Below are positions 14,955 to 52,839 of a DNA stretch of 64,000 bases, in pieces. The position numbers and the translations under genes are program-made. Positions within the stretch are counted from its first letter, which is position 1; every line of letters begins with the position of its first letter. Origin of the DNA: Pontederia crassipes (Eukaryota; Streptophyta; Magnoliopsida; Commelinales; Pontederiaceae); assembly GCA_030549335.1 (NCBI GenBank), contig CM060191.1, positions 52,613,447 to 52,677,446 of the forward strand, written 5' to 3'. A model generated the notes under the pieces. That model was not told where the DNA came from and searched no databases. It worked only from the letters and a program-made list of their open reading frames with translations.

Positions 14955-15264
14955 CTTCCGAGGGCTTCGAGTCTTCCTCTTTTGGCCCTTCCTCGTCTCT
15001 TCTCCTCGTTCCTCCTCCGCCGCGTCGAGCCAATCAGATCTTCCCACATAGCAGTCGACGCAGGACGAACCGGCGGCTTCGGCGGCATCGCAGAGGCGCG
15101 GCGATCGGCGAGGAGCAGGGGTGGGCGAACGCGAAGTCGTCCCAGAGGACGATGCGATCTCCGGATGAAGATTCCGGCGCGTCGGCTATCGGAATTGGAA
15201 GAGAAACGAGGAGGAGCGCCCCTGACATCTTCCACTTCGGCGGCCTCTTTGGCCGCCGCCGTTG

Positions 15265-18200
15265 ATGGCGCCGTCGCCGTCGCCGTCGTCGCTGTTGCCG
15301 TTGCAGATGACTTGGCATCCTCGGTGCCGCCGCGCCGGGCCGCCTCTTGGCCTGAGAAACCTCGGGAACTCGTGCTACCTCAACAGCGTCCTCCAGTGTC
15401 TCACCTACACCCCTCCCCTCGCTCAGTTCTGCCTCTCCTCGCAGCACTCCTCTCTTTGTAAGCATTCTCCTCATCTGACTCGCGGTATTCCATCGTTTTT
15501 TTTTCCTGTGACGAAATCTTCGACTTTTGAAGATAGAGGGAATTAATGGTTTGTTTGGGGGTTTTTGTTGTTTTGCTTCGAATAGGTAAGACGTTGTTTG
15601 TGAATCGGGAAAAGGAGTGCCCTTTCTGCATACTCGAGCGGCAGATCGCGCGATCCCTTAGCCTCGATGGTCCGCTCGACTCGCCATCCAAGATCCAGCG
15701 CTGCCTCGCCCTCTTCGCCGAGCACTTCCGTTGGGGCCGCCAGGAGGACGCCCACGAGTTCCTCCGCTATGTCATCGATGCCTGTCACAACTCTTGCCTC
15801 AAGCTACTCAAACGGACGGCATCTACACCTGGTAGTGGCGCGGTCAATGGGGTCGCCTCGAATGGTACCGCTGCTGCGGTCAAGACGGGATTGAAGGAGG
15901 ATGGCACTGGCGGTCCTAGCACGGTAATGAAAGATATTTTTGGTGGAGCGTTACTTAGCCAGGTGAAGTGCCTTGCCTGCAAGGGGGATTCGAACAAGAC
16001 CGATGAGATCATGGATCTCTGCCTTGATCTTTTTCAGAGCAACTCTTTGAAGGATGCTTTATCTCGGTTCTTCCAGCCAGAGGTTTTAGATGGCAATAAT
16101 AAGTACAAATGTGACAAGTAAGCATTTTATTTCCAACATTTTTGGTGTTCGTTTATTATGTCTATGGTTAGAGCATACGAACTGACTCCAACTATATTCG
16201 GCTTCAGTTGTAAGAAACAATCTGTGGCTAGGAAGCAGATGTTTGTACTTCGAGCGCCCAATGTGCTCGTCATCCAGCTTAAGGTGACTACCACTATTTT
16301 CTCTTTTACTTTCTTTCTTTTTGTCATGTTTCGTTTGCACTTGAGGTCTCACTATAATGCACAATTTTACTTGCTGTATAGAGATTTGAAGGTTTACATG
16401 GTGGAAAGATCAATAGAAATATTGAATTTGAGGAGATTCTTATGCTCTCAAATTTTATGGCTAAGCCAAGCCAGGTTAGTGTATGCAAATTAGTCCTTTG
16501 TTATTATTGTCACAGATATGGTTAGTGTGTGCAAATTAGTCCTTTGTTATTGTCATGGATATCTTTACATTAGATATAAGATGGAAGTAGGATCTGCTGG
16601 TTAGTGTGATAACTCTTAAAAGTTGCACTGCAATTTTGGTTGTAGCCTCGATCATCTAGGACCATAACCTAGTTTTGAATATAAATGATCTCAGCTCTTT
16701 TATGACACTGTAGAATTGGCTTGTATGTTTGGTACCCAAGGTCAATGGTCCAAGACCAGCATTTTTATCTTTTTTGCTGCATCTATCTTAAAAAAAATTG
16801 AAATAAAATTGGTGCTGGTTGAAAGTTGATTTCAACCTTCTTTGACACCTTACCTTTATGAATTATTTTATAGCCAAGTCATTCTATTGTGAAGAGGCTT
16901 GCATAAGAAGTTAGTTGTGATTGGCACATTTGCATACTTTATGTGCTATAGTAACATTCTGAAAAGTTAATATTTGTCCTATATGATTAGAGGTCATAAT
17001 TGAGATTTACAACTTAAACCTTGTTGGGTATATGGTTAGTGTTATTAGTTGAAGAGTGATGCCAGGATATGGAGAAGTTTGGATTACAAATTCTGGTGGA
17101 ACTGCAGTTCTGTGTGTTTTTTCCTTTCTTTTTATCTTCTTCCTATTGACCGATTTAAATATGAATTTATTAGTTTCTAGTCGTGGCATACTGGCATATT
17201 TAATTATGTTATCTTTTATTGTCATTTTTCTTCACTTATTTACAAAATTGTTGGTTATAGGATCCACAGCCTGAGTATAACCTAATCGGAAGCATCGTGC
17301 ATTCAGGCATCTCACCAGAATCTGGTCATTATTATGCTTACATCAAGGTGTTACTTGTTACTAGGAATCCTTTTGTATTCATTTCTTACGGTTCTCCATT
17401 CCGATGATAATGTTTGTTACTTCCAATTTTCATTTTTTATAATGTGCAGGACGCATCTGGACGGTGGTACTGTTGTAATGATTCTCATGTTTCACTTTCA
17501 AGCACACAAGAGGTTTTATCAGAAAAAGTGTATATCCTTTTTTATGTACGCAGTAATCAACGCCCAAATTCAAATAAGATCACTACACCATGCAAATCAT
17601 TGAAAATGTCAAATGCAAGTGGAAGTGTTTCATCTAGTGTCCGATTTGCAGAAAGTTTGAAGCCAACAATCATGAAGCCGAATGGCTTGCCCTCTAAAAA
17701 TAATATTTCTATTGTGCTGAAGAATAGTAAAATATCCTCAGATGCACAAATTAAGCAAAGTAGCTTGAAAAATTTTGAGACAAGGGGAGCTGTTCCTACT
17801 AGTAATGATAACTGTGAAGCTGAAAAAAGCTCTTCAACCACAACTAAGAATGATAAGAAAGTGGGGTCAATGGCATCAACCGAACTTGCTGCTAACATGG
17901 CCATGTCTTCTGCTACATTGCAACAGAACATTCAGAAATCAGGGCTGTATGGAAATGGATTTGCAAAGCCGTTGGCAATAGATGAACATGAACATACTAA
18001 TAATCATAGTGGTGCAGCTGCAAAAAGAATCCTTAACGGTGATCATTCGTTAAGTAATGGGGCAAGTAAGTGCATCATTGATATGTCACCTAATAAAAAT
18101 GAGCCATGCAGTGGTGAGACAATTGAAAGTTCAGTTCTGAGCACCAAAGATTCAAGCAAACTGGCTGATAATGGTTCATCCAAAAGTGAGAAAGTTAACA

Positions 18201-21200
18201 GGAAAAGGAAACCACATGACGATCTTGAATTCCACACAGAAGAGTGAGTATCTAATGTTAATTGCATTTAACTATGACTTATTTCCGCATCCGATCTGTG
18301 CGCATAATTAGCAATTTTGATATATCCATACACAAGCAATACAGAAACTCCGCCTATGTTTTATAGCCGGTCCCAAGCCCAGATAAAGAAGGAGGGTTGT
18401 GTTAGGCTCCGACAGCCAGCGTAAAATCCTGTCGAATCTCATGAACATGGATCAACGAATATGGCGTCGTATGATCCATGTAGCCGACCCCACCTAGTGG
18501 GATAAGACTTTGTTGTTGTTGTATACACAAGCAATACAGAGGGTTTTTGTCCTTTGCTAGTCATCTGTCTTCAAGTTTTTTTTTTTGTAACCCAGGGTTT
18601 GGCATTAGAATAAGATTGGAATTTTAGCTGTATTCATCTGAATAAGTTCAAACAGCAGTAAACCTAGTCAGGACAATTTTATTCTCTTAAAATCAAAACC
18701 CTGGGTTATCTATTGGTTTAAAATCGACAAATACCTAACTTCTGCAATTTCATCCCATAGACATATTTAGAAATTTGAAAATGATTCCCAAACCACCCCG
18801 GCCTATTTCCCTTTGCACATTTTTCATTTTTTTTCAGCAAAATTTTCTCTTCACAATATTCTCTCACACATAGAATAATTTATAATATTATACAAATTAG
18901 TCTTATATTTATAAAATAATACGTATGTAGAGTTTCTCACTAGACCATACTATATTAAGTAAATTTTTTTGTTAAGAAAACTTTTTTCAGTAAAATATAG
19001 ATTGTTTTTATATTTATAGTTTGCCTCAAAAAATATTTAATGAAAAAAAATCATTACTTTCGTATAAAATAGTTTATGCATCTTAGGGCGTTTTTAGGTT
19101 TCTATAGTATTAAAAAATATACAATTGATGAGATAAGTATAGTTTACACAGATCACACCATGATTTGTTCCCTCACGATTAATTGGCCAAGGGTAAAATG
19201 GGCATTCTAATAAACTTTTCACAACATTATCGACCTTATTCACTTATCCGGCCAATCACTATAACAAAAAACACTCATTTATTCCCAAAATTACTTTCCG
19301 ACCAAATTCTAAACAAGAATAACTTTCTCAATTCTTATTGAATAATAATTCTATTAGAATTGTAATCCTTAACCTTTGATTAACTATTCTCAAACCAAAC
19401 TAGGCCTTAATTTATTAGATAAACATGTTCTTTTTTTAACAGTTTGTCTAATTGCAATAATGTTTGTTTGACTTAAACTTTTGCAATCAGTAAAATATGA
19501 TTGCTTCAATGGAAAAATAATCTTATAGTTACATTACTTATTAACAGGAACCAGAACATGTAGATTGTTGGCAATTTTTTAGAGCTCTCTCTTGCCTCAT
19601 CCCTTCATCTATCTTTCTGTCCCTGTTTGTTTTCAACTCCTTCCCTGTGCTACTATTCACATAAGAGGTGAAGAGGGCCAGTAAGAAGGGGAACAATGGA
19701 GATCTGACAGATGCCTACAAAACACTTTTTTAAAATAAAAAAGAAAAGAAAATTGGTAAGACTTGTCTTTTCTATTGTTTATTGATTATCATGATTTTCA
19801 CAGACTTGCCAGAGAAGCCTCTTTGGAACTACAAAATTGTGGTTGGGTGGATAAAGTGGAAACTTACATGCGTGCGAGGAAAAAGGAGTTACACCTGCAA
19901 GCATCAGATAGTTCAGATATTAATTCAATCAAGTAAAAGCCATATATCTATTTTTCAGCAATCTGACTGACTATGCATCTTATGTTCTGTATTACAAATG
20001 ACACTGATGAAATTTTCACTTTCTTGCTTCCATAATATGATCAAATTCATTGTGAGGTGACAGCTGATAAACTCGTAAACCTGCTAATGGTTGTTAGTTT
20101 TTCTTCCACGCGGTTTTTAGTTGCTCCCATTTTGTTAGCTTCTCTATTGCATTCAGTTTTTATTTACTCTTTGCACACTTGCTGCTGGAAATGAACATGA
20201 ATTACTTCACTTGATGACTTATTTATGTTCTAAGTTTAATTTTACATTTCCTGAAAGTGAAATTGTAGGTAATTTTGTCAAATCTTGGTGGCAATGAGTA
20301 ACTGTGTTAACCTCTTAATAGTTTCTAACTTTCTTGTTGCATTTGTTTTCGTTTACTCCATTACTCACTTCTTACAAGAGGGGAACTGTTTTATAATTTT
20401 CGCACATGCATTTTTCTTATGTAGAAAGAGACATAGGTTACTGAATTTCTACAAAATCATTGTTTAAATTGATTTCTACAAAATCAACTTTTTTTTTCTT
20501 CTCAAAAAAAAAAAGTTGATTATGTGTTGAATCTAGCCTAATTGTAGACTCATATGATGTCCCTTTGACAGTAAGGTGGCCCACATCTAGTGTGGCAGGG
20601 TTGGATTTATTTCAGTGTCTGTTGATAGTAGTCATTTTTTTTTTTTTGGAGAATTTAGGAGTTTTATTTTGGGGTGAGATGGTTAATTCATTTGTTAAGA
20701 TAATGCAGACAAACTCCTTTGGGTTTGAGTTATCTGTATCCTCTTTTCTTCAACATCAAGAGAAAATTTCTGCCAACCGAGGATGCGCAACTCATTGAGA
20801 GCAAACCTTGCAAAATCTCGTGTGTTCTGCATGCATTTTCTTATCTCTTTTGCTTGATCTCTGATCGATATATGCTGCTCAACTTTTGCAAAATCATATT
20901 TTAGATCCCTTTTGTAAAATCATGCTTCAAATCACTCTTTAGTTTTCACTATACAAGTCACCAAACTTTTGTTATGTCAAGATATAAGTCACCAGTCAAA
21001 GTTTAGGGGATTACAACATCCATCTTAAAAGATAATGATATTTTTGTTCTTTTTATCTTATTTAACAGTTAGATTTTGAAAGATAAATGTATCTTGTAAA
21101 TTAAACTTGACATCTTTAAATGACATAAATAAACTTTATTTTTTAAAATGGATGATGTGAATACACCATGTTAAAGTTTAGGAGATGAGTGACTTAAAGT

Positions 21201-21653
21201 TGAAGAGAGAGAAATTGGGCTACCTAAACATTAAAATTCAAAGTTGAGTGATTCAAATCTTAACTTTGCGAATTGAGTGACTTGTTTGTTTTTCTCTTTT
21301 TTTTTCGTGTGCATGTTTTTGTGTCCGTGTGTGTGTTTTAAAGGCAAAATTGGATGACTTGTATATTGAAATACAGAGTTAGGTGACCCAAACTCTTGGT
21401 GTACTAGTTACACTTTAGAAGTAACTAAAAATTTGGACGAATGTTATGTTTATCTCTGCATCTTTATGCTAGGTCACCCAAGAAAGTATGTAGTATTATT
21501 TTCTTAAATGAGAAAGGCTTATTTGTACATCACTATGTGTCTTAATGCAGGCAACAGTTGATAATGGATGCAAAGAAGATTTTCAACTATCAACTTCCGG
21601 AATCGCTGAAGGAGCACCTCATTCAACGTCTAAGATCTTTTATTCAAGAATAG
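15265..21653 (+). CDS. UBP23: Ubiquitin carboxyl-terminal hydrolase, UBP23-like (peptidase C19)
   Basis: Cysteine protease that removes ubiquitin from proteins. Eight exons: 15265-15457, 15586-16117, 16208-16283, 16382-16474, 17261-17347, 17450-18243, 19804-19932, 21551-21653. All junctions are GT-AG and phases agree, giving 668 aa. The Cys box is [13 protein letters not shown] (nucleophile C37), followed by QEDAHEFL (117-124). Two CxxC pairs (C193/C196, C240/C243) form the usual zinc site. The His box is SGHYYAYIK (H321), then WYCCNDS with N337/D338. After about residue 360 the protein is Ser/Asn/Lys-rich and disordered, with a conserved-looking C-terminal helix ([14 protein letters not shown]). 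The ATG at 15265 is the first in frame after a stop at 15223 and has a good context (gATGGc). Exons 1-2 are very GC-rich. The USP family is certain; the UBP23 subgroup is inferred from the N-terminal pattern ([25 protein letters not shown]). Exons 7-8 rest on phase and sense alone. Confidence 0.9.
18346..18522 (+). mobile_element. SINE (Au-like 3' end) in intron 6, 18-bp target duplication
   Basis: A 177-bp insertion ends ccgaccccacctagtggg, gataagactt, then (TTG)n, the characteristic 3' end of Au-type plant SINEs. It is flanked by perfect copies of atacacaagcaatacaga at 18328-18345 and 18523-18540. Pol III boxes at the 5' end are not obvious, so it may be 5'-shortened. It lies in the sense orientation of the host gene. 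Confidence 0.85.
18590..18706. mobile_element. Small MITE with TA target duplication in intron 6
   Basis: A 117-bp element with ends acccagggtt...aaccctgggt, flanked by TA at 18588-18589 and 18707-18708. The TA duplication fits Tc1/mariner (Stowaway-type) MITEs, although the terminal bases are not the classical Stowaway ones. Confidence 0.6.
19086..19406. mobile_element. Tourist-like MITE in intron 6
   Basis: Ends gggcgtttttaggttt and the complement of caaaccaaactaggcc form an imperfect inverted repeat. TTA flanks both sides (19083-19085 and 19407-19409). Length 321 bp. The TTA duplication is the mark of PIF/Harbinger elements. Confidence 0.6.
20948..21398. mobile_element. Possible MITE with imperfect 40-bp inverted repeats in intron 7
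   Basis: The left segment tacaagtcaccaaact...atataagtcacc pairs with the complement of gatgacttgtatattg...ttaggtgaccc. Several internal gtgactt/agtcacc words recur. No target duplication was found, so the edges are approximate. Confidence 0.4.
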
Positions 21654-24443
21654 CTTCTAGATATTTGAATCATACTGTGGTATTGCCTACAAATTTTTTA
21701 TTCGTCTTCAGATGATTTTCCTGTTTTCCTTCTGTGATAATGTTCTCCAGAAGACATTGGTTGTTAATTTATAGTTTATTCTTTTGTTCTGATGCATTTT
21801 TTGTTTTTTGCAGTTTTAGCGTTGTAGCTATCCTGGTGTATATGCTATGGGATTATCGAAAGTGCCAATCTGTCTGCAGTGCAAATTCCTCTAGGTTTGC
21901 ACAAGATTCTGATACTTACATTTGCTGTTGGGAGTTAGTTTGTAGATACACTTATCTCTCGATTTCTTGTAGCGTTTCTCAGGTATATATGAGAAACCTC
22001 ATTGAGTTCCTATCCACTTCCATCCGTGGGATTTTTGCAATTTTGAGGCCATAACTACTTTCTTTGCTAGTGGAAGTTGTACGCAGAGTTACATTCTGAT
22101 GTAAGATATCTTTTGATGATGATGCCAATGCTTAATTTCTGGAGGGAGTTATTTTACCTTTCTCAATTCTTTGAATATAACTAGAATCTGAACTATTGAC
22201 ACCTATTATTCTAGATGAATTGATGTGAATTTGACCTCTAAGAAAAGAAATTATGCAAATTTGGCTTTCTCCTTTATAGTTTACATGTTTGACTTGTTTC
22301 CTTACGCTACCATATCGTGAATTTAAGTGGGCAATACTTATTTGATTCATAAGTTACATCTTTCCTAGGCACAAATATAAGGATTTGCATCGCCCTCTCA
22401 CTGGGTTCAATCTATGAAACTTTCTTTTTATACTAACAGATTGAGTTTTGGTTAGTTAGTGATGCCAATAGTTTTTCTTTTTGCATTTATCTGTGTATGG
22501 GTCACTTTAGGACTGTATCAAGTTGATACGACTCTATACTCTTTGACACACATAGGTGTTCTTTCTGTTCAGCTTCTTTCTGTTCGCATTATATTGTTCA
22601 GCATAGTGTTGTTGCAACTCATGTTGGCCACTGAAGTGTACTTTGGGCCCTTATTACAATGGGAACATGTACTAATGCACCATTGATCCCTCTCATCAGT
22701 TTGACTTGGATATTCTAGGCTCATCACATGGTCTATTAAAGCGTAGAAGTAAAAAAGTATTGGTTACTTTTCAGAGTGGAGAGTAATTAAATTTTAACAG
22801 AGAATGACCTTTTTTCTGTTAGACTGCTTTGCTTTATTATTTTGCTGTACTGCAGTCAGCTATGAATAAATGATAATGGTATCTTAATTTTCATTTACTT
22901 CTCTTCATAGTTATCTTTTCAGAGATGAAAGTATGACGTGTTAACTTAGGGGGGCATCTTCAACAACATGCTTGGTTAATGTGAATGGTTCCATCAATCC
23001 ATGTTTTCCCCACTCCTGCACAAGACGAGAATCAGGTATTTCATGCATCAGACGTGAACTTTCTTTGCAAACCAAAAATGGATTGTGTAAGATGAATCTG
23101 TTAACACACCTACGCGACTGATCTATTTTCAACCCATTGCCTTATGAAACAACTAAACTTGAAGTATGTGTATCTTGGAAATATGAAGTTTTGGTACTTT
23201 GGGTCGAGTAAATGGCGTTTCACTGTAAGCTGGATATGGATATACTAGTAGCAACATTCGTTTACTACACAAACTTCAGAAGGTAATTGCAAACAAAATG
23301 GATGATACTACCTAGGTTTGGGATCATTGAGATGTGATGCCCTTTCATGTTATATATATAGTTGAAAAGCAGCCTACTTCGATTAAGCTTACCTGTTGTA
23401 TAGCTACTAGTTCTTCAACAACGTGTTTAGTAACAATAATGACATTAGCGATGTGATCCAATTGATGTTGGCCAGCGAAACAAGTCTCATGTTTATTCTT
23501 GATATTCTGAGTTTCCACACGTAATCTGCTTAGAGAGAACCATGATACTATTACTATCATTCTCATACTTTGCATTGGACTTTTAAGGATTGTCTGGAAC
23601 CAACTACCGTCAACTTATAGATCTACGGGTAGTCCTTGAATTTTTTTTTATTAAGATGAATTTATAAATAGCTTGTGACTACCATAGACCTACCTATATG
23701 TCGACGGTAGGTCCGCATGCGGGCGCCCACACGATCCATAATCTTTTTTGAATTTCCGTTGTTCTGCTGGTTGCCTTTTATACCTTTGTAGGAGTGCACA
23801 ACGATATTATAATAACTTGAGACGAGCAATCTCTGAATTTTTTTGTAAGCCAGAGGCCGGTTTCTTTTTGAGGAAAGAGGTCTACATAGCCGTGCGTTCT
23901 TGCATCCGTGTTTCCTTCAAAATTTAACTACCATCTATTAAGTGCTTCACAGGTCAAACCTGCATCCGGTTCTGCTTGCTTTATGATTGATAAGTCTACC
24001 CATTCTTTGGCAAGAAATAATTCTGCAAGAAAATTAGCACTAAACGCGACAAGAATAGAGGAGGTTCCTTGTACACGCCCAATTCCAATTATATGATGTT
24101 CTATTGTGCCTCATATAGCAAGAATATTATGTTCTTTTATTTGGTTGAAGTAAAACCTCAGGATCTTCATTTTCCATCTCAAACGATCTGCAAACACTCC
24201 AGTCCCCAAAGTAACTTCCGAAACTGGAATTCTATTCAAGTCATCAAAATACCTTGATACTCGAATCGGGTTAGCCGTCACTTTCAGTTGCACAGCTTGC
24301 TGAGGTAGGTAGGAACGTTTATATGCATGTACCATTAATTCATTACGACAAGGCTGCCAAAGGAGGATAAGGAAGGGCTTCTCAAACAGTTGTACCACAT
24401 CTTTCTAACGTTGAGAATGCTCGAAAGAAGAAGCGAACATGCA
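21654..24443. other. Intergenic region between two convergent genes, including both 3' UTRs
   Basis: No further coding exon was recognised on either strand. The first several hundred bases after 21653 and those before 24444 are expected to hold the 3' UTRs of the protease and PEX13 genes. The only notable structure is the foldback at 23604-23710. Confidence 0.5.
23604..23710. repeat. Foldback: about 31-34 bp imperfect inverted repeat
   Basis: The arm ctaccgtcaacttatag plus atctacgggtagtc (23604-23634) pairs with 23677-23710, whose complement reads ctaccgtcgacatatag plus gtaggtctatggtagtc. An AT-rich loop of about 42 bases separates them. It could be a tiny MITE relic or a transcribed hairpin in a 3' region. 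Confidence 0.6.
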
Positions 24444-24566
24444 TTATTCGCTCCAAACTTTATCCCATGATTCATTTCCGGCAGTCTTGGGGCCCTTGAT
24501 GAAATGCTGCCCACGCCCAGAAGGGCTTGGTGTTTGTTCACGTTGTTTCTGGGATTTTGTTTTCAT
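24444..24566 (-). pseudogene. PEX13: PEX13 C-terminal tail beyond the premature stop
   Basis: Directly after the TGA the same frame stays open for 40 codons, starting MKTKSQKQREQ and ending WDKVWSE before TAA at 24446-24444. Plant PEX13 proteins normally continue after VLRLLG with a Lys-rich segment (IKTKP) and end in a WDNVW-type motif, so this is the expected tail. The TGA occupies the place of the usual glycine codon (GGA would need one change). Confidence 0.8.
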
Positions 24567-26701
24567 TCATAGAATCCTCAGTACAAACCTTGCAAGTTCA
24601 CCGTACAACAAACCAGAACGATCAACGAACTGCAAAGCAACAAAACCGTACACATTATAATAATTACCTAAAGACAAACACGCGAGGAGAAACTTAACCT
24701 GGAGTAGAGCTGACATCAACATGTGAAATGCCCGAGTATTTTGGTCAATAAGTATTGCAATGCGACCTAAGAAGTTGACGACGCCCTGCAACTGCCATCA
24801 AAAGTATTCAAACTTAAAAGAAAATTGAAGCATTTTCAGCACATCGAGCAACACACAAATAGAAGGGCAAACCTATGTTAATGATGGAAAATGTTTCGGA
24901 ATATACTACCAAAAAAAAATCTTTACGGATAATGGTGGGAGCAATATGATAAGTTAGAAGTGTACAAACAATGGCCTAATGTTTTTGTAACATTTGTGTT
25001 TCCTACAAAAGTTGAAAACTTACCGCCCGAATGAAAGATACCCAATTGTCTGGGGGTGGGGGTGAAGGAGGAGGGTGACTTGGATCTTGGCCACCGTAAG
25101 GACCTCCCATGCACATCCCATAGCCTCCCATTGGTCCGCAGCCGCTATTATACATTCTATTACCATAATAAAGCCCACCCCCATACGATCCACCAAGTCC
25201 CCCATATGAACCATACATACATGAGCCATAACCTGCAGTGCATTGTATTGAATATGAGGTATATAGCCTGAGAAACTAGTTGTGTAAATTACCATAACAA
25301 CGTTACCTCCATAACTAGTTCCAAAATTTTGTCGCCACGGCCTCGGGGGCGTGGGCCTTGAAAGACCGTGAATTCCGTTTGCAGTCCGGCTCGTGTTGGC
25401 GCTCGACACTACTCCACCTGGTTTTGCAGTTCCAGATGCTTCTACAACATGGCTTGTATTTCCTGCAGATGGAGGCTTCAATGGTGTAGGACCAGACGAA
25501 GTTCCTGCTTGTTTCCGATGTGGATTTTTACCTGAGGTTTAATAATAATAATAATATATCAGTTAGTTCTATAACTGATAAAGCAAAGTAGCTTGTTTTG
25601 ACTTCAACAGGGGAAGTCATAACAGGCAGGCAGATGACACCAATAAATACCATCCAAAACATCACCTATAATTTATTTAAAAAACTAGTAACTCAAATGA
25701 TCATCCTCAAAGATATTGTACGTAAGCTACATATATATAGAACTTAACTTGACATTTTTAATACCCCGATAATTGGTGCATGCATGAACTTTCCTTCAAC
25801 TATCTCAGAGACAAACAAAATGGCATTGGACTCGAAAGTTCCCACAAGTCTTATGACTATAAACAATATATGCTCTGACCTCATCAATGCTAACAGATCC
25901 AATTGCATTTCAAGAAATCATGCCAACCTAATATCTATGCATGCTCATCGATAATGCAAAGACCTTCAATTCGAAGCCAACTTAGCTTGGATCCCCCCAT
26001 GCATGTTAAACACGGAATGAAGCTTTACTTGCACAGTTGCACGAACGTAAAAAAAAAAAAAAAATACAGCAACAACATACGCACACATGATCATGAGGCA
26101 GACGGACACACCAACATTAGAATTAGAAAAGGATAAGATTCGAAACCCCTACATTTCTTCGTGCACATAGAAAGTGAAGCTAGGGCATGGATCCTTCTAA
26201 AACCACTGAGGGATAAATCAACACCAACGGCTCGTCCAGAAATCAATGTTCCGAGTATTTCTCGAACACCAGTGATATCAGTAATCGCACTGGTGCCTCT
26301 GTTAAACACCTATCAATAAATTTTCGCGACAGCCTCTGAAGTAACTAATTCGTATATTAAAAAGCGACCCATAAAATACTACGAACACGAAAGCACCGCC
26401 TTCATGCTAGAGATAACAACAACAACAATGATAGCATCAAGCCAAAGCACGTAATCAAGATTTTGGATTAATCATTCCAATGGTAATTATAATCCCATAA
26501 AACAATATGCGCTTTTGGTGCGTCCGAATCACCATCGAAACAAGTAGTCCCCGATCGAACTACGAACCACGAAAACCCTTACAAATTCAACTAGAAACCG
26601 TAGAAATCGGATGGAAGCACACAAAAAACAGAAACAACAGCAATACGATCAATGAGGAGGAAGAGGATTCAACCTGTCCATCGCCGGGAATTCGAGGCCA
26701 T
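24567..26701 (-). CDS. PEX13: Peroxisomal membrane import protein PEX13, frame ends early
   Basis: Docking component of the peroxisomal matrix protein import machinery. Minus-strand exons: 26701-26674, 25531-25307, 25232-25024, 24791-24699, 24629-24567. Junctions are GT-AG and phases agree. The N-terminus starts MASNSRRW and continues into VEASGTAKPGGVVSSAN and SRPTPPRPW, a pattern I know from plant PEX13. Next comes a Gly/Tyr-rich repeat region (YGSYGGLGG, MGGYGM, GGPYGG), then PPPSPPPPDNW, then the conserved membrane part with LQGVVNFLGRIAILIDQNT and DRSGLLYGELARFVLR. No SH3 domain is seen, as in other plant PEX13 proteins. The frame stops at TGA 24569-24567 after 205 aa. In-frame sequence with a PEX13-like ending continues to 24444, which would give 246 aa. 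The stop may be a real nonsense change or a sequence error. It converges with the deubiquitinase gene. Confidence 0.9.
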
Positions 26702-27714: not shown

Positions 27715-30700
27715 AGGTTATAGCGTGGAACTGTCAAGGAGCGGCGCGCGGGAAAGTCATGGACCGTCTCCTCGAAATAATTCGCAAACATCGCCCTGAT
27801 ATTTTAGTTTTGTTGGAAACACATTTTGATGAATGCAGGTCTCGCGAGGTCATCCGTCGTTTGGGCTCGACTTGGCGCGGCGCAGTGCAGCCAGGCATTG
27901 GTGCCTCTGGCGGCATCATCGTAGCATAGAGGGAAGGTTCTGCCCAGGTGACCCCGGTCCATCTCTGTTCACAATTCATGCATCTTGTAGTTATGTTGAA
28001 TGGCTTTACATTTTTGCTCACTAGCATATATGCTAGTACATCCCCTCTTGTTCGTCAGTCCCTATGGTCAGACTTGGATAAGCTCCAAATTGGAGACTTC
28101 CCTTGGACTATAATGGGTGATTTTAATTGTTTGCTGAACCCTGAGAATAAGAGGGGTGAGGCTCCCTTTCATCTGTCTAAATCTGTCAAATTGCTGCGTC
28201 ACTTGGTTCAATCTAAAGGTCTGATTGATCACCGTCCACAGGGTAGTTACTACCATGGTGCAACAACAGACGGGGGGCTGCGAGAATTCTCTACAGGCTC
28301 GACCGCATTCTTGTCAGCCATCATTGGCTCAACGTATTTCCATTAATGAATATCGAACACCTCCCCAGAACTGCTTCAGATCATTCTCCCTTATTAGTGC
28401 AAACTGACATTAGGAGAAAACATAAACCTTTTTACTTTAAATATGAACACTTTTGGTTAGAGTATGATGGGCCTCAAGACATTGTTAAAAAAGAATGGAA
28501 TAATGATTGCATCTTCTCCTCTTTGAAGAGAATCAAACACAAAACTCTAGAATGGAATAAGAATTGTCTAGGCAGTCTTGAGCATAGAGCTGAGTTAGCA
28601 GACAATAGGATCAAACTCCTTAAATCTAGAGATGCTGCCAGTGGCCTCTCCAACGATGAACTTAATTCCCTTAGATCAGCCTATAATGAACATAATGCAT
28701 ACTTAAGGCAAATCAGTATTAAGTGGTGGAGTAAATCAAGGGTTAACTGGCTTAAGAATGGTGATAGAAATACTAGGTTCTTCTATTTATCTACGACTGT
28801 TAGGAGAAACAAAAACTTTATTCGTTCTATGACTAGCCCCTCTGGCCACACAATTACTGATGAAAATGACATTGGGAATGCTTTTGTCCATCATTACAAG
28901 GAGATTTGGATGTATGAATCCACTCATGACACCCCTCTTCTGGATTGGCCTTCCCTTCCTTTGCTTGATGCTTCCCCTTTGTCAATAGCCTGATATCTGA
29001 TGTCTCCCCTGATGAGATAAAGAATTATCTTTGGAATATGGGCCCTGGGAAGGCTCCAGGTCCGGATGGATTCACAGTTGATTTTTACAAACACTATTGG
29101 GACACTGTGGGCCCTGGGATTATTAGCACCATATAAAATTTTTTCATAAATAATACTCTTCCTCCTGATTGGTCTAGGACTACCCTGGTTTTCATTCCCA
29201 AAAAGCAAAGGCCTACTTGGATTTCTGACTACTGTCCTATATCTCTGTGCAATGTCCTTTATAGACTCACTGCTAAAATCATTGCTAATCGGCTTAGGCC
29301 AGTGTTGTCTGAACTTATTGATCAGACTCAGTCTGCTTTTATCTCGGGTAGGAATATCCAGGAAAATATACTTACAGTGTAAAAAATTGCTCACTCTCTC
29401 AATCTTGGCAGGAAGAATTTCTTCATCTATAAAGATGACATGGACAAAGCATTTGATAGATTTTCTTGAAACTCAATCACCACTGCCATGCACCTCATGA
29501 ACTTCCCACACAAATTCATATCCTAGGTGACCACTTGTGTCCAGTCTCCGACATTTAATTGTTCCATTAATGGTATCTCCTCTGAATACTTTAAGAGCTA
29601 TAAAGGCATCAGACAGGGTGACCCGCTATCCTCCTATTTGTTTATAATTATATCTCAGGTCCTTACTTCTTTACTCCATAAGCAGGTTGTGGATGGCCAC
29701 ATTATCCCTTTCTCCATTGGCTCCTTCTCTCTTAGTCATCTTATGTTTGCAGATGATCTCATCATTTGTTTAGCTGCTACTAAGAGTAACTGCATTCATT
29801 TGAAGTATACTTTAAATTCTTACTACTTGCTTACTAACCAACGTGTTAATATGGATAAATCTGAATTGTATCTTCCAAAAAAGTTGCACAGGAAACATAG
29901 AGACATAATCAGGGCATTAAAATTGGCACCTTTCCTTTCAAATATCTAGGTGTGCAAATTTCATATAAATATATCCCCTCTATAAGCCAAACCTCCATCT
30001 TGGACAAGATCCCATCTAAATTATCTGGTTGGAAAGGTAAGCTGTTGAATCAGGCTGGGAGAGCCACACTAATCAAATCTGTTGTTAATTCCTTACCTGT
30101 TTATGCTCTTAGTGCTTCACATGTTTCTCCAGGAATTATTCGATCCTTAGAAAAATTTTCCAGATCCTTTTTACGGAACTCAGGTTAGGAGGGCAAAGGG
30201 ATCCACTTAATTAATTGGAATGGAATGAAAAGTATGAATATTGTTAGGCTTGCTCTTCTTGCTAAACGTATTCAAGACCTAATGAATGGCAAAAAGTCCT
30301 TATGGAAGGATCTAGTTTATAATAAGTATGGCTCAATTCACCCTTGGGGAAACTATGATACAAAAAAAATGTGCATGGAGTTGGAAAATTATCCTTAGCT
30401 CTCTCGGCCAACTGAGGTTTGGTTTTCTTAAATTGATTGCGGATGGGACTTCTACTTTTGTTTATTTTGATTCCTAGATATCTGTTGTCCCTTTAGCTTA
30501 GTGTCATACTTACATTAATATGGATTACATTCATTTGCTTACTTCTTTTCAGGTTTTTGATCTTATGCATAACCGTGTTTGGAATTGTAATTTACTTAAT
30601 GATCTATTTGTCCCTTTATTGTGCTCTAAGATTACTGCTATTTTCATTTCTATGCATGCCAATGATGACTTTGGATTTGGGAGATTAATTCTAACGGAAT

Positions 30701-35062: not shown

Positions 35063-36510
35063 AGTTTAGATGTTTACTTAAGACCTTTGATTGATGAACT
35101 CAAGATGTTGTGGGAGGATGCCGTGATTACCTATGATAAATCTAAAAAGTAAAATTTCATTATGAGAGCCGCATTAATGTTGACCATAAGTGATTTTCCG
35201 ATATATGGAATGTTGAGTGGTTGGAGTACAAAAGGAAAACTTGCTTGTCCCATATGTGAAAAGAATATGAAATCCTTTTATTTGAAAAATTGTCGAAAAG
35301 TTTGCTGGTTTGATTGTCATAGGATGTTTTTGCCATTGAAGAATTCGATGCGTCGTGATCGAAACTCATTTAAAAAGAATACATTCGAGAACACTTTGTG
35401 TCCAACTCATTTGACGGGAAAAGAATTGCTAGAGCAAGTAAACAAGCTTAGTGAAGTTTCATTCAGACTGAAGGCCGGTAGTTATAAGTAAATTGGATTT
35501 GGAAGTGAACATAATTGGGAGAAAAGAAGTATTTTTTGGGAGTTGCCTTATTGGTCTTCAAACTTGGTACGTCATAACTTGAACGTCATGCATGTGGAGA
35601 AGAACGTATTTGACAACATCTTCAACACTATTATGGATGTTAAAGGAAGAACAAAAGATAGCATACAGACTCGCGAAGACATGAAATTAATATGCAAAAG
35701 ACCAGAGTTAGATATCATTCATCTTCAAAATGGTAAATGCAAAAAGCCAAAAGCTACTTATGTCTTGAGCAATGATAAAAAAAAAGTGGTTTTCGAATGG
35801 GTAAAGCAATTGAAATTCCCCGACGGATATGTATCAAACATATCTCATTGTTTTAACTTGGACAATGGGAAGATACATGGGATGAAGAGTCATGATTGTT
35901 ATATTTTTATGCAAAGGATGCTTCCAATTGTCTTTAAATAACTTTTGCCAAAGGCCATATGGGAGATTTTAACAGAATTTTCTATGTTCTTTAAAGAACT
36001 TTGTGCATCCATCGTTCGGAAAGAAGATATATCTCGGTTAGAGGCTTTTATTGTGATTACCGTGTGCAAAGCTGAGAAGATATTTCCACCTTCTTTCTTT
36101 GATGTGATGGAACATTTGATTGTACATCTACCATATGAAACAAAAATTGCTGGTCCAGTTCAGTATCGATGGATGTATCCTTTCAAAAGGTACATGTTAT
36201 ATTTGAAAAGGAAGGCGAAGAATAAGGCAAAAATTGAAGGCTCCATATGTGAAGCATATTTCATTGAGGAGGTGTCAAACTTCACTTCAAAATACTTTGA
36301 GCCACACATACAATCACGACACACCCAAGTTCCAAAAAACGATGATGGTGGTGAAGGAGAAGTTGACATGAATATTTTATCCATCTTCAAGTACCCATGT
36401 TGACTTCTTGGTGTAGGACAAAAAGTTATCTTGAAAGACAGAGATCTCACTGCCGTTGAGAATTATGTTCTTGCAAATTGTCTCGAAGTGACGCCATATC
36501 TCGAGTAAGG
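35063..36510 (+). pseudogene. TNP2-like CACTA transposase, N-terminally deleted, with DUF4218
   Basis: The frame enters in mid-protein (LDVYLRPLIDEL, then SGWSTKGKLACPIC) right after a subterminal repeat block, so everything before is deleted. It continues with LPYWSSN, LNVMHVEKNVFDNI and TKDSIQTREDMK, the C-terminal part of transposase family tnp2. The DUF4218 region follows, with SRLEAFIVITVCKAEKIFPP and PVQYRWMYPF, and ends at about 36510 (ENYVLANCLEV). In-frame stops stand at 35150, 35489, 35939 and 36401. Intact TNP2 cuts the CACTA ends. Confidence 0.88.
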
Positions 36511-36593
36511 CAATTTGTTCTATTTGTTATATAATTTAAGGTTAATTGTTGCTATATGATTGTATTAATTGAAAACTATGAATTTAGAAAATT

Positions 36594-37506
36594 TGAAGAA
36601 TTATAGCGAGAAATCGATCCGCTAGTTTCTAACGATGAGTTATTGAAACTACGAGACAAACATTTTGCCGACTGATTGAGATGTGAAATGAGAAATCTTT
36701 CTGCTTGTTCTTAATTTTTATAAGTTCTTAATTGTTTTAAGAAAGTTTTTAGTTATTTTTCTTGTAGGTTATTAATGGCTCAATCATAGAGAACAAAATA
36801 CGAGATCTCGGTCATAGCCCGAAGAAATAAGTTCTTAGCTATTGCGGTGTCATTTTCAATGGATATCGGTTCCATACAAAAGAATATAGTCGACAACGTT
36901 CAACTATTAATAGCGGCATATGTGTTCTAGGAAGCATGTACGTGGACGATGACTTTGATTACTACTGTGTTATAGAAGACATCCTAGAATTGTCTTATTT
37001 GGAAAAAATCTAACAAAGTCGTGGTGCTAAAATGTTGTTGGTTCGATCCAGAGAAAGGAGTTCGGATCGATCAAAAGTTTAAATTGGTGGATATTAACCC
37101 TCGGTCGAGACTTCAGTCATACGATCCATTCGTATTGGCGGAACAAGCACAACAAGTGTACTACACTAAGTATCCATCGAAAAGAACCAAGGATGAATGG
37201 TGGGCATCATGCAAGGTGAGGAGTAGACTATTCTTAGCAGAAACAATGGTAGATGACAATGAAACATCATCCGTACACAACGATGTGCCCATGGACGATT
37301 ACTATCAAGAAGATAGAGTGAATGAGACGATTGATGTGGCTGATGGAGTTGAGAACTTTCAATTGGTCGATGACGTTGAGCCAATGGAAGAGTTCAATTC
37401 AAATGACCTCTTGGATGTGAACTTTGATAATTTTGTTGACGATGACTCGAACCAAGATTATAGCGACGATGATGAAAATGAATCAGAATACGAAACAAGC
37501 GAATGA
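36594..37506 (+). pseudogene. DUF4216 region of CACTA 2
   Basis: Broken frames show IIENKIRDLGH, then NGYRFHTKEYSRQ and NSGICVLGS, then DYYCVIEDILEL. An open frame at 37021-37506 continues VLKCCWFDPEKGVRID, RLQSYDPFVLAEQAQQVYY and WWASCKVRSRL. That frame ends in an Asp/Glu-rich acidic tail (DDDSNQDYSDDDENE). This is the domain that typically follows TNP2/DUF4218 in plant CACTA genes. Several stops interrupt the first half. The reversed CACTA 1 has a shorter relative. Confidence 0.85.
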
Positions 37507-49123: not shown

Positions 49124-50084
49124 TTATATGTTCTTATGCAAATCCTTACTAATCTCCATGGTTTGTTATATTATCAATGTTATGATATGAATCTTAAAAT
49201 GATTTATATAAATGTGCCTTTTATGTATTGGATGAATGTATGTAGTAGAATTGCTTGTGTATGGATGAAAATGGGGAAAAAGGGACAAAAATGAGGGAAA
49301 ACTCGGTTGTTTCCCTGGGTACAGTCGTGATACCCTGGACACGATCGTGCCGCATCGAGAGGACGAACGGATACATGGACGTGAATTGCCGTTAGATAGG
49401 TGGTGAATTCGAGTAATTAGATCCGTAGGGAATTATTGCCTGACAAGGGTAACTGCTCTAGGATTCGTCAGTCAAAAGTCAGTTACATGGATCATCTTGC
49501 GTAATATGGAGGAGCACATGAGTACCGATTCAATGAAAAAAAAAGTGAAGAAAAATAAGTGAGAAAAAAAATAATGATGAAAAGTTTCCAAGCGAAGAAA
49601 TATAAAATTAATAAATGAATAAAAGCTCATGTTACACTTGTGTATTCAACGTTGATATTTTTATTTTCAAGAATTATTTTCTTATTATTCAGAGCTGAAT
49701 TTGGAGGAGTTTAAAAATGTCTTTCATTCAAAAATTTCACAAGTTGGGTTATTGTGGAAAAGTGGTGAGACACTACAAGAAAATCGCGATTTTCCAACGG
49801 ATAATTTTCGACGGTTCTAAATCCGTCGCTATTTGCGATGGATTTTTCGACGGTTCTGTTTCCGACGAATTTTTCGACGGTTATGACCGTCTGAAATAAT
49901 TTATATTATTATTTAATTTTTCGACGATTAGGAACGTCGATATTTTCGACGGATAACCATCCGTCGTAATTTTCGACGACTTTTCCGACGGTTATGACCG
50001 TCGAAAATAAAAAAAATTAAATTATGTATTTTCAATATTATTATTAAATTTTTTCGACGGATTTTCCGATGGTTTTGACCGTCG

Positions 50085-50870
50085 AAAATAAAAAAATTAA
50101 TTATATAATTGGTTATATTATTATTTAATTTTTTGACGGTTAGGAACGTCGATATTTTCGACGGATATCCATCCGTCACAAAATCCGCCGCAATTTCCGA
50201 AGGTCGTAACCGTCAGTAAATCCGTCGCAATTACCGACGGATATCCAAACCATCACAATTACCGACGGTTTTGACCGTCGGAAATAAAAAAATTAATTAT
50301 ATAATTGGTTATATTATTATTTAATTTTTCGACGGTTAGGAACGTCGATATTTTCGACGGATATCCATCCGTCGCAAAATCCGCCGCAATTTCCGAAGGT
50401 CGTAACCGTCGGTAAATCCGTCGCAATTACCGACGGATATCCAAACCATCCCAATTACCGACGGTTTTGACCGTCGGAAATAAAAAAATTAATTATATAA
50501 TTAGTTATATTATTATTTAATTTTTCGACGGTTAGGAACGTCGATATTTTCGACGGATATCCATCCGTCGCAAAATCCGACGCAATTTTAGAAGGTCGTA
50601 ACCGTCGGTAAATCCGTCGCAATTACCGACGGATATCCAAACCGTCGCAATTACCGACGGTTTTGATCGTCGGAAATAAAAAAATTAATTATATAATTGG
50701 TTATATTATTATTTAATTTTTCGACGGCTAGGAACGTCGATATTTTTGACGGATATCCATCCGTCGTAAAATCCGCCGCAATTTTCGAAGGTCATAACCG
50801 TCGGTAAATCCGCCGCAATTTCCGACGGATATCCAAACCGTCGCAATTACCGACGGGTTTGACCGTCGGT
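50085..50870. repeat. 196-bp tandem array, four units, in CACTA 3
   Basis: The marker taggaacgtcgatatt occurs at 50141, 50337, 50533 and 50729, a period of exactly 196. Each unit holds about nine cgacgg/ccgtcg motifs and an AT-rich linker (aattaattatataatt). The units are nearly identical. The last one diverges at about 50830. Partial units precede the array from 49930. Confidence 0.9.
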
Positions 50871-51000
50871 AAATATTACCGTTGGTTCAAACCGTCGGTA
50901 AAATAAAAAAATAAATATTATATATAACTAAATAAAATAAAATTTTTTATTATTTATGTTTTCGACGGCCGAAACCGTCGGTAATTAAAATTTCGTTATC

Positions 51001-51400: not shown

Positions 51401-52839
51401 AAAAAATTATTTGCGACGGTTGCGACCGTCAAAAGATCGACGGTTGCGACAACCGTCCAAATTTTTGACAGTTGGGACCGTCGAAAAGTTGCGACGGCTC
51501 GGACCGCCGGCCTTTTCCGGCGGTTGCGACTGTCGGAAATATCGACGGCTCGGACCGCCGGCCTTTTCCGGCGGTTGTAACCGTTGGAAATATCGACGGT
51601 TCGAACCGCCGGGGACTTCTGTTCCGACGGCCAGAACCGTCAATATTTTTGACGAATTTTTTTCAACCGTCGCAAATCCGTTTGCGACGAGCATTTTTCG
51701 GACGGATCAATTCCGACTAAAAAACCGTCGGTAATTGCGTTACCGACAATTTTCGGGCTGATTACCGACGGTTCGGACCGTCGGTAATTCGCGTTTTTCT
51801 TGTAGTGAGACACTTGGGCGATGGATGTATAAAATTTAGTGTTAAGAAGACTAGTTGAGTGACAGTGTGAAGCGATCATTAACCATTTTGATTGGAGCTT
51901 TTCTTTGAACATTGCTTGAGGACAAGCAAGTATCTAAGCTAAGTAGTTGCCCTTAGGTCGTCAAGCAATAATTCCCTATGGATCTAATTACCCGAACTCA
52001 CCAAGGTTCCGGATAACACATTTTTGTACCTCCTCATACTTTTTGGGGCTCCACTAGCCCTCTTTCATATATGATGTACTTATTTATTAGTAAGCTCAAC
52101 TACATTTGAAAGTTCAACAGGGATATAATTATTATCATGCTAATATACACAATATAAAAATAAGAGCATGAACATAACTTGTTGTCAAAGATCCATAGTT
52201 TCACTAAGCAATTTTTTTCAAACTAATTACCCAACACGAAGGCGATAAATGATAAAATAATAATGCTTCAAATTTCATTAATTATTAGGATGTCCTTGAA
52301 TAATGCTTGAAAATAAGTAAATACTAAGACATGAGAAAATAAGATGTAATTTTCACTTATGAAAATAATGTTTTTTTAATATGAGATGCAAGCAAATATG
52401 CAACTAAAATATGAAGAGAACGTATGCTTGCAATGCAATATAAAAAGATATACATGATGCATTAAATTGCAAACTCCCCCAAGCTTGAACTCAACACTGT
52501 CCTTAGTGTTGGAAATCAAGTCTCATAGGAATAGGAGCATGAATGTAATAATAAAATTATATAAGTAGAAAAGAAAATGAAATAACCTGGTGTATGTGGA
52601 AGATGTAAGAAGAAGCCACGAAGAATCCATATTGTCCTTGGTCGATAAAAATTTGGGCGTCTCTATTTCCTACTTTTCTTCAATTTCAAGGATGCAATTT
52701 TTCTTTTCTCTTTCTTTCTTTCTCTTCTTTTCTTCTTCTTTATTCCCCTTTTTTTTAAATGTTGTTACGGGTTGTGAAGGGAAAATAACGGTATGTGAGG
52801 TAATATCAATGAGTCATATTGAAGAGCTCACGAACCTTC

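Follow-up and report, generated by a model that had tools for sequence, protein, structure and literature searches.

A PEX13 gene of Pontederia crassipes contains an in-frame TGA, and the coding frame behind it can still be read to its end. Is this stop real, and does the gene still have a use for the plant? We analyzed the surrounding stretch of 64,000 nt (C9:52613447-52677446, hereafter the window) and examined the genome, which comprises 1.13 Gb in 43 contigs. It is quite probable that the C9 gene is a redundant homeologous PEX13 copy decaying toward a pseudogene, and that the TGA is a real, recent nonsense change. The best reading of its sequence is a segmental or whole-genome duplicate with the TGA as its one overt lesion.

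Gene model and premature stop of the C9 copy

Searching at the protein level with the core from exons 4-5 detected PEX13 on C9, C15, C16, C11 and C12. A DNA search with the last exon added a copy on C10, which is 84% identical to C9 and is its nearest relative. The six copies found form three pairs on consecutively numbered contigs: C9/C10, C15/C16 and C11/C12. Exons 2-5 are open to the normal stop in C15, C16, C11 and C12 (the four full-length copies), and C9 has a single internal stop. The order of exons is common to C9 and the full-length copies.

The C9 gene has five exons on the minus strand and spans positions 26701-24444 of the window. All four introns are GT-AG with consistent phases, and the joined frame is 741 nt long. 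Its features, in window positions, are as follows.

26674..26701, minus strand: exon 1, MASNSRRWT plus 1 base; 0 of 28 positions differ from the sister copy C10
25307..25531, minus strand: exon 2; PWE is lost compared with the four full-length copies
25024..25232, minus strand: exon 3, tyrosine/glycine-rich (YG) domain in shortened form; the helix segment begins here
24699..24791, minus strand: exon 4, helix segment
24444..24629, minus strand: exon 5, last part of the helix segment, then the TGA and the old C-terminal tail to WDKVWSE
24567..24569, minus strand: premature TGA, codon 206; GGA (Gly) in C15/C16, lost in C10 by a 15-nt deletion
24444..24566, minus strand: old tail past the stop, 40 codons and TAA; WDKVW versus WDNVW/WDSLW in the four full-length copies

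The stop is codon 206 of 247 and occupies 24569, 24568 and 24567 on the minus strand. Exon 5 (24629-24444, minus) translates as FVDRSGLLYGELARFVLRIL-TGA-MKTKSQKQ...WDKVWSE-TAA, so that 40 open codons and then a TAA follow the TGA. A sequence-only reading of this DNA had proposed a TGA that truncates PEX13 with a readable tail behind it, and both its coordinates and the open frame to the TAA were borne out. It had also attributed the stop to one change, from GGA to TGA. This held in the nucleotide alignment of the last exon, where C15 and C16 read CTA GGA ATC and C9 reads CTA TGA ATG. The alignment confirms that a single G-to-T change, from Gly GGA to TGA, would explain the C9 stop. None of the four full-length paralogues has a stop at this position. 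Gly was expected there, and it is present in two of the four (C15 and C16, the nearest full-length paralogues), but C11 and C12 have a gap. C11 and C12 are without the residues around the Gly after RIL, and their C-terminus is longer (GDDTKGKLANN).

An open tail of 40 codons is by itself weak evidence of former coding. However, the sequence behind the TGA aligns to the four intact paralogue tails (GPK...WDNVW / WDSLW), and on this basis it shows as the old PEX13 coding tail. Near the end of the full-length copies is WDNVW or WDSLW, with 4 or 11 further residues after it; in C9 the corresponding tail (WDKVW) is encoded in the DNA but lies past the TGA.

The remaining exons had been described as intact. 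They are indeed open and spliceable with phases that agree, but they are not unchanged. C9 lacks the PWE of PPRKPWEQAG and several segments of the YG domain. This domain is present in a shortened form, with 10 Tyr in 75 residues compared with 13-17 Tyr in 80-105 residues in the four full-length copies (counted between RPW and W[IV]S). C9 deviates at 32 of the 155 aligned positions that are identical across the four full-length copies, and 28 of these 32 changes lie upstream of the stop; as a comparison figure, 4 changes are limited to the C15/C16 lineage. C9 thus evolves faster than the other PEX13 copies of this genome. The segment from WVSF to RIL, a putative helix by alignment, aligns gap-free with the other four copies. 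In Pfam, at E values up to 10, the 205-aa and 40-aa pieces of C9 matched 0 families, in a search run without an intact plant PEX13 as control. The only PDB match to C9 PEX13 was weak and unrelated (cytochrome c550, E 0.26).

Exon 1 is readable at the homologous place in C15/C16 as MTSESPPP, where the sequence is ATGACGTCGGAGTCCCCGCCGCCAG. For C11 and C12, scanning the upstream flank by pattern pointed to one candidate exon 1 each, MASNPPPP and MASNSPPP. If these are right, intron 1 would be ∼9.3 and 5.7 kb long.

Segment duplication and the sister copy on C10

The members of the pairs differ by 4-8% in their introns, which would fit better with subgenomes than with two haplotypes. The surroundings of the C9 gene were compared with those of the other copies. 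Blocks in C9 intron 1 are common to C15 and C16, and an upstream block is common to C15. The window also contains the following neighbouring gene.

15118..18324, plus strand: ubiquitin-specific protease (USP) gene with UCH domain; C10 and C16 likewise have it next to PEX13, 3′ part on C15

On C16, the USP gene and the blocks at 19768-23107 accompany PEX13 in unchanged order. C15 has the same blocks, but only the 3′ part of the USP gene was aligned in the 10 kb examined on that side. On C10, the longer of the shared blocks between 14042 and 23285 of the window are 92-96% identical to C9. Two USP pieces (194 and 271 residues) are unbroken in both C9 and C10, and their proteins are 96-97% identical. 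From this neighbourhood we conclude that C9 PEX13 is a segment duplicate and not a retrocopy; a retrocopy was ruled out by the intron blocks and the neighbouring USP gene that are common to other copies.

Several repeats were seen in the window. A short dispersed element of ∼177 bp at 18346-18522 also lies near PEX13 on C11, C12 and C16 (92-94%) and on C10 (89%). Four head-to-tail units of 196 bp (95% matches), rich in CGACGG/CCGTCG, occupy 50066-50875, and further tandem arrays are at 49970-50138 and 51477-51612. Sequence resembling these CGACGG/CCGTCG units was found on C15 near 3138150 and 3170200. ORFs with DUF4218 and DUF4216 lie at 35942-37506; these domains usually accompany CACTA-type DNA transposons. 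A 248-aa ORF at 28247-28993 had no Pfam match at 0.01, and by eye we take it to resemble the endonuclease/reverse-transcriptase region of a LINE.

The sister copy (C10:27199491-27201350) has many disabling lesions. A 263-bp deletion spans the junction of intron 1 with exon 2 and removes sequence from both. There are insertions of 4, 4, 7, 1 and 1 nt, deletions of 17 and 1 nt, and in-frame deletions of 27 and 15 nt. Its tail is deleted (about 31 nt, by eye), and both splice sites of exon 4 are changed (AG to TG and GT to AT). Exon 3 contains a long C run. The 7-nt change lies in a C run and could be an assembly fault. Judged by these lesions, the C10 copy is a dead, multi-lesion pseudogene.

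With polarity set by eye against C15/C16, 11 exon indels fall to C10 and 1 to C9 (binomial p 0.006); of those in C10, 9 break the frame or remove a splice site or an end. The one in C9 since the split is a 3-nt in-frame insertion; one more 3-nt difference has unset polarity. Because of these numbers (1 versus 11), C9, unlike C10, would have been protected for at least part of the time since the split, and either it died only recently or it still gives a protein without the tail. Dating the TGA through the sister copy led nowhere: the 15-nt deletion in C10 covers the place of the TGA, so C10 gives no date for the stop relative to the split.

Selection, divergence and the status of the stop

We ran our own codon model on five copies (C10 not included) with a fixed tree and 282 columns, excluding the stop column. 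Omega was 0.337 on the C9 branch versus 0.146 elsewhere (p 0.009), and was below 1 (p 0.0016). For the part before the TGA, omega over the whole C9 branch was 0.29 (below 1, p 0.0006). For the tail after the TGA it was 0.60 over 54 columns (p 0.72 versus 1, p 0.23 versus background).

In a six-copy model, C10 was added and its misaligned exon 5 end was masked (283 columns). The C9/C10 ancestor had an omega of 0.30, below 1 (p 0.0013) and above the background of 0.148 (p 0.036). Since the split, omega was 0.71 in C9 (p 0.68 versus 1, p 0.036 versus background) and 0.90 in C10 (p 0.0012 versus background). An unmasked run gave 0.30 for the ancestor, 0.66 for C9 (p 0.057 versus background), 1.04 for C10 and 0.148 for the background, and the conclusion was the same. 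The changes found only in C9 since the split were 6 non-synonymous and 4 synonymous, those found only in C10 were 12 and 4, and 7 were ambiguous; the neutral share of non-synonymous changes is 0.73. The C9 ratio rests on ten changes and is compatible with weak constraint. Without masking it was 7 to 3, with one codon misclassed.

The exons of C9 and C10, with the tail end masked, differ at 35/589 positions (0.059), introns 2-4 at 17/325 (0.052), and intron 1 with the flanks at 129/2325 (0.055), with p 0.69 for exons versus non-coding sequence. The unmasked exon count was 41/601 (0.068). The other two pairs served as controls. Between C15 and C16, exons differ at 25/819 positions (0.031) and introns 2-4 at 39/497 (0.078; p 1.7e-4). 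Between C11 and C12, the numbers are 12/738 (0.016) and 15/379 (0.040; p 0.02). At the level of sequence divergence, these comparisons show that the coding sequence of C9 and C10 has drifted at the non-coding rate since their split; the omega of 0.30 shows that their common ancestor was still constrained.

Coding indels point to the same older constraint. All are in frame between C9 and C15 (9/9) and between C9 and C16 (8/8), and in introns 2-4 only 1/11 and 1/10, respectively, are multiples of three. Because coding indels are all multiples of three and intron indels mostly are not, the frame appears to have been guarded for most of the time since C9 parted from C15/C16. An old, fully decayed pseudogene was ruled out by these in-frame coding indels and the ancestral C9/C10 omega of 0.30. 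C9 was thus probably still guarded for a while after the C9/C10 split, and its TGA is probably young.

How unusual is a single stop in such a copy? In C9 PEX13, 3.9% of random substitutions are nonsense. With 10-14 changes on the C9 lineage at 3.9% each, about half a stop is expected, and therefore one stop needs no special cause. The lesion of a duplicated pseudogene was found in C9 as a TGA where C15 and C16 have GGA. C15/C16 and C11/C12 would supply PEX13, and selection on the C9/C10 pair would thereby have been relaxed. C10 may have broken first, and C9 may later have gained one nonsense change. Against decay, C9 has kept its splice sites and has 1 exon indel of set polarity compared with 11 in C10.

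The same observations bear on a retained, shortened PEX13, a 205-residue protein that would work alongside the four full-length copies in a partial, regulatory or tissue-specific role. Intact splice sites and almost no exon indels while C10 fell apart (1 versus 11, p 0.006) would agree with such a protein, as would the omega of 0.29 before the TGA (whole C9 branch, C10 not in the tree, p 0.0006 versus 1). The stop also falls after the helix segment, and PMC9795577 describes the YG domain and the amphipathic helix as the only strictly conserved parts of PEX13. However, this low omega mostly reflects the older, ancestral C9/C10 branch; the C9 branch after the split has an omega of 0.71, compatible with 1 and above background, with 6 non-synonymous and 4 synonymous changes. 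The PWE and YG losses and 28 of the 32 changes at fixed positions lie upstream of the stop, within the part that would be retained. In Arabidopsis with PEX13 cut short at codon 263, a PTS1 marker is found partly in the cytosol, according to PMC9110829. We consider a retained short form unlikely.

The open tail is also what a bypass of the TGA would require, whether by read-through, by RNA editing or by splicing out the stop within an intron. On paper, the tail could be rejoined in frame through ten GT-AG introns within exon 5 or through four that start at the exon-4 donor, and the donor AAG/GTTTGT at 24588 scores well (4.98) with a crude, unfitted splice-site matrix. At this place, C15/C16 have AAGGTTCGT. 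However, in-frame acceptors score from -1.9 to -8.7, compared with 1.4 to 5.6 for the four real ones, and every in-frame intron that removes the TGA would take part of the helix segment. Splicing around the TGA was rejected for want of a good in-frame acceptor downstream. Editing of TGA to GGA would require a U-to-G edit, and to our knowledge such RNA editing is known nowhere. For read-through, the context is UGA-AUG and not the UGA-CUA(G) described in PMC4132726. PMC9293766 reports that TGA is enriched among Arabidopsis read-through genes, which by itself is no support. Predicted structure downstream of the TGA was no better than that of shuffles (fold z -0.13). The tail omega on the C9 branch (0.60 in 54 columns) does not differ from 1 (p 0.72), nor from the background (p 0.23). 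Read-through, editing and alternative splicing, which the sequence-only reading had left as options, thus found no support in stop context, downstream fold or in-frame acceptors, and a bypass is extremely unlikely.

The call hangs on one base, and an assembly or sequencing error in a plant that truly has GGA would account for it. Other C9 positions also show near-neutral change, though, the sister copy is dead, and the two compared USP pieces are unbroken in both C9 and C10 with 96-97% identical proteins. An isolated wrong base is not how long-read assemblies usually fail. An error is very unlikely. The true nonsense change is the best of the options that had been put forward (truncation allele, error, and read-through or editing), but as the decay of a duplicate and not as an allele of a single essential gene.

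Predicted product and comparison with known systems

Since the stop lies in the last exon, junction-dependent decay of the mRNA is not expected. If C9 is transcribed, its product would be a 205-residue protein that keeps the shortened YG domain and the helix segment and loses the WDxVW tail. Such a protein would resemble the truncation in Arabidopsis apem2 and would be at best weak. The YG domain and the amphipathic helix are described as the only strictly conserved parts of PEX13 (PMC9795577), and the function of the tail in plant PEX13 is stated as unknown in PMC9110829.

In human PEX13, a C-terminal FxxxF motif mediates PEX14 binding (PMC11024197), and a review states that PEX13 interacts with PEX14 (PMC6557986). 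By analogy, we suggest that the plant WDxVW element may be the counterpart of this motif, and the WDNVW/WDSLW end of the four full-length copies is a candidate PEX14- or PEX5-binding element. The proposed PEX14-binding role is weakened because a yeast two-hybrid assay, as reported in PMC9110829, detected no interaction of Arabidopsis PEX13 with PEX14 or PEX5. It is quite unlikely that a tail-less C9 PEX13 is expressed and sits in the YG meshwork of the import pore without WDxVW, acting next to the four full-length proteins as a natural regulatory or dominant-weak form.

Relatives outside this genome were looked for by pattern in viral contigs (19 matches) and genome contigs (305 matches); neither is a plant collection, and none was confirmed. 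A peptide search of the literature gave no match. No title on PEX13 loss in a polyploid was among the literature matches listed, which does not prove its absence in print.

Decay of a redundant duplicate, our preferred reading, is the ordinary loss of a duplicate gene, and this one genome holds a tidy series, from four full-length PEX13 copies through a copy with a single stop to a wreck. Fractionation after polyploidy is the closest process. It is alike in the segment duplicate, the intact neighbour, the redundant full-length copies and coding drift at the non-coding rate. C9 differs in having one overt lesion in an otherwise open, spliceable frame, whereas C10 represents an advanced stage.

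Arabidopsis APEM2/PEX13 (At3g07560) is alike in its YG-rich region followed by a helix segment (PMC9795577), and the absence of an SH3 match in Pfam for C9 agrees with Arabidopsis PEX13 (PMC9110829). This likeness is by description; our alignments covered the copies of this genome. C9 differs from flowering-plant PEX13 by the TGA after the helix segment and the loss of PWE and YG segments.

The apem2 (apm2) allele has a stop for Gln263, a nonsense change that, as in C9, removes only the C-terminal region of PEX13; the PTS1 marker then appears in both peroxisomes and cytosol (PMC9110829). A second Arabidopsis allele affects a Glu 20 residues before it (PMC9110829). If this is the Glu of GELAR, we infer that the C9 stop lies about ten residues upstream of the apem2 stop. 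The C9 stop falls between the conserved helix segment and the tail, and any protein made from this copy would parallel apem2 as a natural truncation. However, Arabidopsis has a single PEX13 gene in the list of PMC9110829, and apem2, which affects it, has a phenotype, whereas here four full-length copies remain.
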